From Candidatus Tayloriibacteriota bacterium (GTDB taxonomy: Bacteria > Patescibacteriota > Minisyncoccia > Phycocordibacterales > PALSA-1337), in assembly GCA_903839695.1 (NCBI GenBank), contig CAIMDI010000014.1:1-34602 (forward strand): a stretch of 34,602 nt of DNA. Direction: 5' to 3'. The notes under the pieces are model-generated. The model searched no databases and was not told where the DNA came from. It saw only the letters and a program-made list of their open reading frames with translations. The position numbers were made by a program, and so were the translations under genes. Every line of letters starts with the position of its first letter. The first letter of the stretch is position 1. Below, piece by piece: positions 22,281 to 25,837 of the stretch.

Positions 22281-23411
22281 TTAATTGTGCACAACTCTAA
22301 GTATTTCTTCCCTACTAGTTATTCCCTTTTCTACCTTTTCCATACCGTCCTCGTACATAGTTATCATTCCTTTGCTTTTAGCATATTTGTCTAAGTCGTT
22401 TATTGAAATATGAGACATTATGTATTGTCTTAATTCATCATCAATAACAAGTGTTTCTGCAATAACTGTTCTACCTTTATAGCCAATCGTTCCACAATCT
22501 GCGCAACCAATACCCTTACACTCAATACAGATTTTCCTTACAAGTCTTTGCGCAATAACAAGAGATAATGTTGATGCAATGAGATAAGGATCAACTTTCA
22601 TATCTATAAGTCGAGGAATAGCACCCAATGCAGAATTTGTATGTAGAGTAGATAAAAGCAAATGACCTGTCAGAGAAATATTTGTAGATATTTGTGCGGT
22701 TTCTATGTCTCTTATTTCACCGACCATTATGATGTCTGGATCTTGTCTGACTATTGAACGTAAACCATTTGCAAAAGTTATACCGTGTTTAGAATGTATT
22801 TGTATTTGTCTAACACCTGGTATTGCATATTCTATAGGATCTTCGAGCGTAATAATAGAATTTTTTTGAGATGAAAGTGAAGAAATCAAAGTATAAAGTG
22901 TAGAAGTCTTTCCTGACCCAGTAGGACCTGTAACCAAAATCATTCCCTGATGATGTGTTAACGAGGAATTAATTCTTCCCATATCGTGTTCAGAAAATCC
23001 CAACTTCAGTAAAGAAGTAGAATCATTTTCATTTTTTAGAATTCTTAAAACGGCATTTTCACCATAATGTGTAGGTATAATAGAAACTCTAATATCGCAT
23101 TCACAAACACCTTCAGAGAATCTAAATCTTCCATCTTGCGGTACAAAATGTATATCTGTTCTTAAGCCTGACATTACTTTTATTCTAGCAATCAGCTCCT
23201 CGTGGCTTTCATTTTTTAATGTATCCTCATAAACTAAAACTCCATCAATTCTAAATCTAATAACTATACCCAATGATGTGGGATCTATATGTATATCAGA
23301 TGCGTTTCTGTAATATGCATAACAAATAATGGAATTTACTAATTCGACAACAGATCTTATGTCGTGAAGGATTTGATTATTTAAATTTATATTGTATTTT
23401 TCATCTTTCAT
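22281..23411 (-). CDS. Pilus assembly ATPase (PilB/GspE family), short form
   Basis: This hexameric ATPase powers pilin polymerisation. The 376-aa protein has the N2E-like segment (ASDIHIDP, 38-44), Walker A GPTGSGKTST (162-171), the Asp box (LEDPIEY), Walker B (DPDIIMVGE, 224-232), the His box (TGHLLLSTLHT) and a zinc-binding tetracysteine (C295, C298, C303, C306). The tetracysteine and context indicate PilB/GspE rather than the retraction ATPase PilT. It lacks the N-terminal MshEN/N1 domain of the usual about 560-aa PilB, which normally contacts PilM. The gene heads the cluster; the 44-bp 11-bp-repeat array ends 17 bases before its ATG and there is no SD site. Confidence 0.93.
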   Translation of the reverse strand: MKDEKYNINLNNQILHDIRSVVELVNSIICYAYYRNASDIHIDPTSLGIVIRFRIDGVLVYEDTLKNESHEELIARIKVMSGLRTDIHFVPQDGRFRFSEGVCECDIRVSIIPTHYGENAVLRILKNENDSTSLLKLGFSEHDMGRINSSLTHHQGMILVTGPTGSGKTSTLYTLISSLSSQKNSIITLEDPIEYAIPGVRQIQIHSKHGITFANGLRSIVRQDPDIIMVGEIRDIETAQISTNISLTGHLLLSTLHTNSALGAIPRLIDMKVDPYLIASTLSLVIAQRLVRKICIECKGIGCADCGTIGYKGRTVIAETLVIDDELRQYIMSHISINDLDKYAKSKGMITMYEDGMEKVEKGITSREEILRVVHN

Positions 23412-23516: not shown

Positions 23517-23544
23517 TTGCCAAAACAGCAAATTATGATAATGT
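23517..23544 (+). promoter_or_regulatory. Promoter of the candidate non-coding RNA
   Basis: TTGCCA (23517-23522), 16-nt spacer and TAATGT (23539-23544), the latter preceded by TG to give an extended -10 (TGATAATGT). Predicted start near 23551. Confidence 0.55.
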
Positions 23545-23550
23545 TTTACA

Positions 23551-23927
23551 AGCCCTGATGCCCTTTTATACCAAATAGTAAGGGGTAACGTCAGGATTGG
23601 TAAACCAGAAACAACGGGAGATCCATGTTGTCCAAAATAAGACGCAAACGGTGGGAGGCATCCAGAAGCAATGTACTTGTTGTAGGAGGTGAGTACAGAC
23701 TGGGTGGTAAATCAAGTGACGAAAGGACAAACGGGAACGGAGTGACGATGAACCATAATGGGGAAAATGGCCATCATCATCCACACGGGAGAAGGAATTC
23801 TCCTCCCAGACTGATAAAGGTAATTGGGGGGAATTTTAACTCCCGAACTGTAACTGGCAGGTAGGCGCCGGTTGAACCTTTTAAGTCATGGCCGCCCCTT
23901 CAGAGGAAGGGGCGGCCATAAATTTTT
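23551..23927 (+). ncRNA. Candidate large structured non-coding RNA, unidentified
   Basis: This stretch of about 375 bases stands out from the AT-rich surroundings: it is G+C- and purine-rich on the plus strand and full of complementary segments. Examples are CCTGA/TCAGG (23554-23558 with 23591-23595), CCCTT/AAGGG (23561-23565 with 23580-23584), GTACT/AGTAC around 23673-23695, CTGGG/CCCAG (23700-23704 with 23804-23808), GGGAG..CTCC around 23787-23804, AACTGGC/GCCGGTT (about 23852-23873) and a final 14-bp stem at 23888-23919. A promoter lies just upstream and a T-run follows the last stem. I do not find RNase P, tmRNA, 6S, SRP or group I/II intron signatures. A 79-codon frame inside (23625-23864) has biased, non-protein-like composition. 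Confidence 0.7.
23888..23927 (+). terminator. 14-bp hairpin closing the candidate RNA
   Basis: Arms 23888-23901 and 23906-23919 pair perfectly around AGAG, followed by AAATTTTTATA. It can be both the 3' stem of the RNA and its terminator. Confidence 0.75.
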
Positions 23928-23964
23928 ATATCAAACTCTTTTGTACACCTAATCGTAAAAGCAT

Positions 23965-23994
23965 TTGACTTTTACATCATTTTTATGCTTTAAT
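23965..23994 (+). promoter_or_regulatory. Promoter of typA
   Basis: TTGACT (23965-23970), 18-nt spacer, TTTAAT (23989-23994), predicting a start near 24001. The short leader contains the hairpin GCCCG-TTTT-CGGGC (24012-24025) followed by ACTTTTAAT, which could attenuate or protect the mRNA. Confidence 0.5.
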
Positions 23995-24037: not shown

Positions 24038-25837
24038 ATGGATATAAGAAATATTGCAATTATCGCCCACGTAGACCACGGAAAAACTACGCTTACTGAC
24101 GCTATTATGACCCAATGTGGCCATGGAGACGACGGTACTATGGATTCTAACGCTTTAGAACAAGAGCGTGGTATTACTATTTATGCAAAAAATACCTCAA
24201 TAGAATACAAAGGTACAAAAATTAATATTGTGGATACACCAGGTCACGCAGATTTCGGTTCTGAAGTAGAGCGTGTTCTTCGTTCTATTGATACAGTTCT
24301 ATTGGTTGTAGACGCACAAGAAGGACCAATGCCACAAACTCGTTTTGTATTAAAAAAATCTCTTGAATTAGGATTAAAGCCTATTGTTATAATAAACAAA
24401 ATAGACAAACCAGCAGCAAATCCAAATCATTGTCACGAAATGGTTCTAGAACTTTTCATGGAACTTGGAGCAAATGATGAACAATTAAACTTCCCTACTA
24501 TTTATGCGATAGGACGTGAAGGTGTTGCGATGAAAGAAATTAATGATGAGAGAAAAGACTTAAAACCTCTTCTAGATATGGTACTTTCTCATGTACCACC
24601 AGCAAATCTAAATCACAGTTCTACAGCACCGCTTACAGTGCAAACTTTTAATCTAGGATATGACAATTTCTTAGGACGTTTAGCTATTGGACGTATTTAT
24701 GACGGAACAATAAAAGATGGACAAACTGTTTATGAAAAGAAAATTGATGGTAGTGTACAATCTGGAAAAGTTACTAAACTTTTTACTTTTGAAGGAAAGA
24801 AGAGAGTAGAAATAAAAGAAGCTACAGCTGGTGACATTGTTACTATCGCTGGTTTTCCCGAAATATATATTGGTGAGACATTAACAGACAATACTGATAC
24901 ACCAGCCCTTCCTGCTATCAAAATAGACGAACCAACAATTTCCCTAAACTTTTTAGTAAATAGTTCTCCTTTTGCTGGAAGAGAAGGAAAATTCGTTACA
25001 GGACGACAAATAAGAGAAAGACTTGAAAAAGAACTAGAAATTAATGTCGGATTAAAAGTTGATTTTACATCTAATGAATACTACAGAGTTTACGGTAGAG
25101 GTGAACTTCATATCGCAGTACTTCTAGAAAATATGCGACGTGAGGGATATGAATTACAAGTTTCCCAACCACAAGTTATTATAAAAGAAATTGAAGGAGT
25201 AAAAAGTGAACCTTTTGAAGAACTTACAATAGACACACCAGATGAATATACCGGTGCGATAATAGAAAAATTAGGAAAAAGAAAAGCTTCAATGACAGAC
25301 ATGAAAACCAAAGAAGGTATTTCAAGAATGATTTTTGAAATTCCTACTCGTGGACTATTGGGATATCGCGGTGCTTTTGTTATTGATACTAAAGGTGAAG
25401 GAATTCTTGCAAGTCGTTTTATAGACTTCAAACCATATGCAGGTGAAATAGAAAAACATTCTACAGGATCAATGACATCAATGATGTCTGGAAAAGCTCT
25501 TGCTTTTGCTATTTGGAATCTTCAAGAAAGAGGACGTATATTTATAGAACCCACTACAGAAGTTTACGAAGGAATGGTTGTTGGTGATACATCAAAAGGA
25601 GATGATATGGATGTTAATCCATGCAAAGGAAAAGCAATGTCTAACATGAGATCATCTGGAAATGATGAGCACATCATGCTTACCCCTGCTTGGAAAATTG
25701 ATATTGAAAGAGGATTAGAAACAATGCGTGAAGATGAATATCTAGAAATCACCCCAAAGAATGTACGCCTAAGAAAAAGATTCTTAACAGCAACTGACCG
25801 ATCAAGAGCAGGAAGAAAAGATCAAAGTGCTAATTAA
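24038..25837 (+). CDS. typA: Translational GTPase TypA/BipA
   Basis: TypA is a ribosome-binding GTPase that assists late assembly of the large subunit and growth under stress. The 599-aa length is normal. Visible are the P-loop [12 protein letters not shown] (residues 10-21), switch-region [15 protein letters not shown] (G3) and NKID (G4), followed by domain II, EF-G-like domains III and V ([16 protein letters not shown]) and the TypA-specific C-terminus with [19 protein letters not shown]. The ATG has no SD; the leader is about 37 nt and carries a short GC hairpin. It is a single-gene unit closed by the terminator at 25847. Confidence 0.97.

Follow-up and report, generated by a model that had tools for sequence, protein, structure and literature searches.

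Organization of the pilB-typA spacer

The window, by which we mean the whole stretch of 34,602 nucleotides that was analyzed, is one contig (C14) of a patescibacterial genome (G000) of 0.73 Mb with a G+C content of 32.7%. Within it, a 626-bp spacer separates two divergently oriented genes: a pilB-like ATPase gene on the minus strand (22281..23411), which is the first gene of the pilus operon and whose named relatives include records from 'Candidatus Taylorbacteria' and 'Candidatus Nomurabacteria', and typA on the plus strand (24038..25837). This spacer houses an island of 408 bp (about 23549-23956) that is 47% G+C and 58% purine, against the 32.7% G+C of the genome. A preliminary description, made from the sequence of the window, had placed a purine-rich, G+C-rich island in AT-rich DNA directly between the pilus operon and typA, and both the composition and the placement are borne out.

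An extended -10-like promoter element, TG-A-TAATGT, was recognized by eye on the plus strand at 23536..23544, and the sequence TGG-TATGAT of a sister species (G004) aligned with it. The same element had no entry in a consensus promoter scan, which requires a -35 box. Thus, the earlier proposal that the island has its own promoter agrees with inspection by eye and with the aligned counterpart but not with the -35/-10 consensus scan. At the other end lies a plus-strand intrinsic terminator (23888..23919), consisting of a 14-bp stem in which 10 of the 14 pairs are G-C, a 4-base AGAG loop and the tail AAATTTTTATA, just as the terminal stem and T-run had been described. Taken as boundaries, the promoter and the terminator predict a G+C-rich, purine-rich plus-strand transcript of about 370 nt (23550..23927). 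Between the terminator and its start codon, typA has a promoter-like sequence of its own, TTTGACTTTT...TTTTTATGCTTTAAT (about 23965-23993), which is kept across the genus and is also present in sister species without the island.

High G+C content between the genes of an AT-rich genome is an accepted signature for finding structured RNAs (PMC8632094). The genome has 209 intergenic stretches that are 120 bases or longer; when these were ranked by their best 150 bases of G+C, the island took rank 14, and 10 of the 13 stretches above it carry rRNA, tRNA or tmRNA. About ten other G+C-rich intergenic patches of this genome have no known RNA; therefore, G+C content alone is not diagnostic.

Coding signal, RNA families and predicted fold

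The island contains an open reading frame of 79 codons on the plus strand (23625..23864) that starts with ATG and has GGGAG 4 bases upstream. Frames of at least 79 codons arose in 28 of 1,000 dinucleotide shuffles, so its length is above expectation. The frame showed no codon periodicity (p = 0.27-0.31), a property that most 237-base chunks of real genes display, and its G+C content by codon position was flat (0.47/0.49/0.45), whereas third positions in real genes range from 0.17 to 0.26. The preliminary description had named conservation of this frame as protein as evidence that would count against an RNA. We looked for such conservation and detected no protein relatives in 53 genomes of the family, GTDB contigs, IMG/VR or Pfam. 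The absence of relatives and periodicity, together with the flat codon-position composition, suggests that the frame is probably noncoding and probably not a gene.

A search of the window with Rfam 15 returned nothing at the gathering thresholds, and at E values up to 10 the island gave terminator-stem noise only, in keeping with the earlier view that it belongs to no recognizable family. Neither the RNase P RNA covariance model (RF00010) nor that of tmRNA (RF00023) matched in the window, ARAGORN called no tmRNA there, and the group I intron model (RF00028) and other Rfam intron and large-RNA families were likewise without a match. No match to SRP RNA (RF00169) was obtained in the island at E values up to 10 or in the rest of the genome. 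A nearly complete survey of the genome against Rfam located rRNAs, tRNAs, tmRNA (C9:21304-21679), RNase P RNA (C1:7163-7565, 116 bits), a group I intron and a LOOT RNA, all of them on other contigs; the island is therefore no displaced copy of a housekeeping RNA that Rfam recognizes. The island resembles tmRNA and RNase P RNA in its length (about 370 to 400 nt) and in its purine-rich loops but differs from both in having no Rfam match, and the genome encodes each of these two RNAs on a contig other than C14.

Several observations were made in passing during this inventory. The group I intron lies in the 23S rRNA gene region (L100:2300-2531, on contig C20), and the LOOT RNA (RF03000, 70 bits) is at L115:10207-10325 (contig C35). 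The 4.5S SRP RNA model (RF00169) matched none of 31 genomes, namely this one and 30 relatives, at E values up to 0.1, while 12 of 14 controls were positive. Scanning for the SRP RNA core with a permissive text pattern produced only noise. A motif scan of the genome with a crude pattern and no positive control detected no Ffh/FtsY-type GTPase.

With the terminator included, the island folded with a z score of -3.9 on the plus strand and -4.5 on the minus strand; the minus strand folds this strongly because the terminator dominates the energy. Once the terminator was removed, the plus strand scored -1.7 and the minus strand -2.2. Control sequences of this genome gave -5.5 for RNase P RNA, -2.9 for tmRNA, -2.1 for the start of 16S rRNA and -0.1 to -1.2 for coding pieces. 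The one part of the island that clearly exceeded chance was its 3' third (23780-23880), with a z score of -3.2, reached by 1 of 300 shuffles. Two plus-strand hairpins are predicted there: an 18-bp hairpin whose stem is interrupted by a symmetrical AA/AA internal loop and topped by a 20-nt apical part (23786..23845), and an 8-bp hairpin, UAACUGGC/GCCGGUUG, with a loop of 8 (23851..23874). The predicted fold also includes, on the same strand, a 5' hairpin (CCUGAUG...CGUCAGG, with an inner CCCUU/AAGGG stem; 23554..23595) and a middle hairpin (CAUCCAG...CUGGGUG, with an inner UGUACUU/GAGUACA stem; 23659..23706). These models suggest that the 3' third, with its 18-bp and 8-bp hairpins, is likely to be structured; structure elsewhere in the island is unproven. 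Of the many complementary segments noted in the preliminary description, only those between 23780 and 23880 are thus clearly supported, and its candidate large structured RNA is only half borne out, since the overall fold energy is near chance outside that region and no homologue, hence no covariation, was found.

Homologue searches and the palindromic hairpin

The island had no blastn homologue among 60 relatives or among the 397 genomes searched across the order; those weak matches in relatives (E values of 0.001 to 1) that we inspected look like chance and fall within recA-, initiation factor-like and similar coding DNA. Single-sequence covariance models of the two halves of the island, run against the 53 family genomes, gave nothing apart from the match of the 3' hairpin considered below; what the 5' model matched in G016, G020 and G067 was weak and broken. 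Phage and plasmid collections yielded nothing of note, and the literature on patescibacterial RNAs and CPR palindromes yielded nothing specific. Because no relative appeared in any collection searched, a new class of RNA cannot be claimed. The orphan structured-RNA candidates of a published screen based on G+C content and length of intergenic regions (PMC8632094) are comparable to the island in being long, G+C-rich stretches with their own terminator and no coding signal, but they have homologues and covariation, whereas homologues of the island were not found in the collections searched.

The divergent arrangement of pilB and typA is retained across much of the family, and typA itself is 86 to 92% identical in four sister species. 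None of the syntenic spacers of 13 relatives contained a homologue of the island. The spacer harbors kinase-like genes in eight relatives (G001, G003, G006, G007, G008, G015, G016 and G018), short orphan frames in two (G004 and G020) and promoters only in three (G002, G017 and G022). The pilB-typA spacer is therefore a variable slot with different content in nearly every species, and the island is, as far as can be seen from the genomes compared, private to one species. The kinase-like genes form a very divergent family with a P-loop and 240 to 285 amino acids (L168, L169, L171, L174, L175, L177, L178 and L182). The island is not a decayed kinase that we could recognize, as a hidden Markov model of the syntenic kinases found no remnant in the genome. 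We also rejected homology to the aligned 400-nt transcript of G004, whose local alignment score was no better than that of shuffles, and a likeness to the spacer of G020, which fell from a z score of 3.9 with lenient gaps to 1.4 with stricter ones and is not believed. The G004 transcript includes an 80-codon frame, which also lacked periodicity (p = 0.55).

The covariance model of the island's 3' half matched two places in G072, a genome of another genus in the same family (E = 2.5e-4 and 0.007). The matched sequence is a palindromic element of about 80 nt, with a consensus of about CACCCTTTTGGGGGGAGTAGTTCCTCTCCTCAAACCCnnAAGGGGAATCGGAGAGAAACTCTCCCCCCAAGCGGGTG, that forms a repeat family in G072, where its 14 matches are spread over about 11 places (among them L191:1501-1561, L192:1500-1558, L200-L207 and L210), and occurs in none of the family's other genomes. 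At least several copies lie in frame within protein genes, including LigA-like and TatD-like genes, and both orientations are represented. The 18-bp hairpin of the island has arms equal in length to those of the element, and 14 of its 20 apical bases are identical without gaps, a score reached by 21 of 200,000 shuffles. A hidden Markov model of eight G072 copies had the island hairpin as its sole match in our genome, with an E value of 0.52. Given that many hairpins were implicitly compared, these likenesses are no more than suggestive, and kinship between the hairpin and the G072 palindrome is plausible but not established. A further match of the hairpin model, in G168, is probably merely another long palindrome. 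By analogy, the in-frame G072 family resembles the Rickettsia palindromic elements, and we found no earlier report of such elements in its group in the literature searched. The island hairpin is similar to the Rickettsia elements in size and in the long-stem form of a palindromic insert, a likeness by analogy only, but it is present in a single copy in its genome and the stretch around it is no recognized gene.

Interpretation of the island

We tentatively favor the view that the island is an RNA gene of about 370 nt, an orphan confined to its lineage, and we hold this explanation at somewhat below even chances. Its G+C content ranks with that of spacers carrying rRNA, tRNA or tmRNA, it ends in a 14-bp terminator, its promoter element recurs in G004, its 3' third folds better than chance, its frame has no coding signal, and RNase P RNA and tmRNA are accounted for elsewhere. 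Against this stand the lack of a homologue by blastn, by the two covariance models and in the 13 syntenic spacers, and hence of conservation or covariation, as well as the near-chance fold without the terminator and the ten or so similar patches. The same lack of homologues, the changing content of the spacer, the fold and the resemblance of the hairpin to a mobile palindrome would fit the next most probable explanation, a nonfunctional stretch that was recently acquired or is decaying (foreign DNA or the remains of a former gene, plus a palindromic insertion) and retains a leftover promoter and terminator. This explanation is possible, though we consider it less probable than an RNA gene: no trace of a kinase was detected by the hidden Markov model search, decay in a 33% G+C genome should have drifted toward AT while the island stays at 47%, and neither the near-perfect terminator stem nor the 18-bp hairpin has been lost.

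A small orphan protein gene, encoding a basic peptide rich in Gly, Asn and His behind the GGGAG ribosome site, ranks third, and we regard it as unlikely. The frame occupies most of the transcript, ends 24 bases before the terminator and is of a length seldom seen in shuffles, and the aligned G004 transcript and other sister spacers also have short frames; yet searches of the family, GTDB, IMG/VR and Pfam turned up no relative, the third positions are not host-like, periodicity is missing here as in the G004 frame, and the two transcripts align no better than chance. Rather less probable still is a new large structured RNA of one patescibacterial lineage that evolves too fast for our searches and bears a mobile palindromic hairpin in its 3' domain. 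A cis-acting leader of typA, such as a riboswitch or an attenuator, would account for an island upstream of typA on the same strand with a terminator at its end, but it is very improbable, given that typA has its own promoter-like sequence after the terminator in island-less sister species too, that no clear antiterminator is apparent, and that the island is not conserved alongside the well-conserved typA.

If the island is an orphan RNA gene, transcription would proceed rightwards from the extended -10 promoter within the divergent spacer and would stop at the strong terminator, ahead of the promoter of typA. The RNA would comprise the 5' hairpin, the middle hairpin and three consecutive 3' hairpins (18 bp, 8 bp and the terminator), with purine-rich single strands between them. 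Most likely it would act as a free regulatory or protein-binding RNA, the unpaired purine-rich stretches serving as contact sites. The island may be a recent innovation or a recent arrival in a slot whose content differs from one species to the next, and the 18-bp hairpin may derive from a mobile palindromic element.

Should the predicted transcript prove not to be made or not to be stable, the island would be a caution that, where no homologue exists, G+C richness combined with a promoter and a terminator can wrongly suggest a large structured RNA. If it is transcribed and stable, it would represent a species-level RNA gene in a minimal genome that is sparing of noncoding DNA, and the pilB-typA spacer would be a site at which small transcripts are born or swapped.
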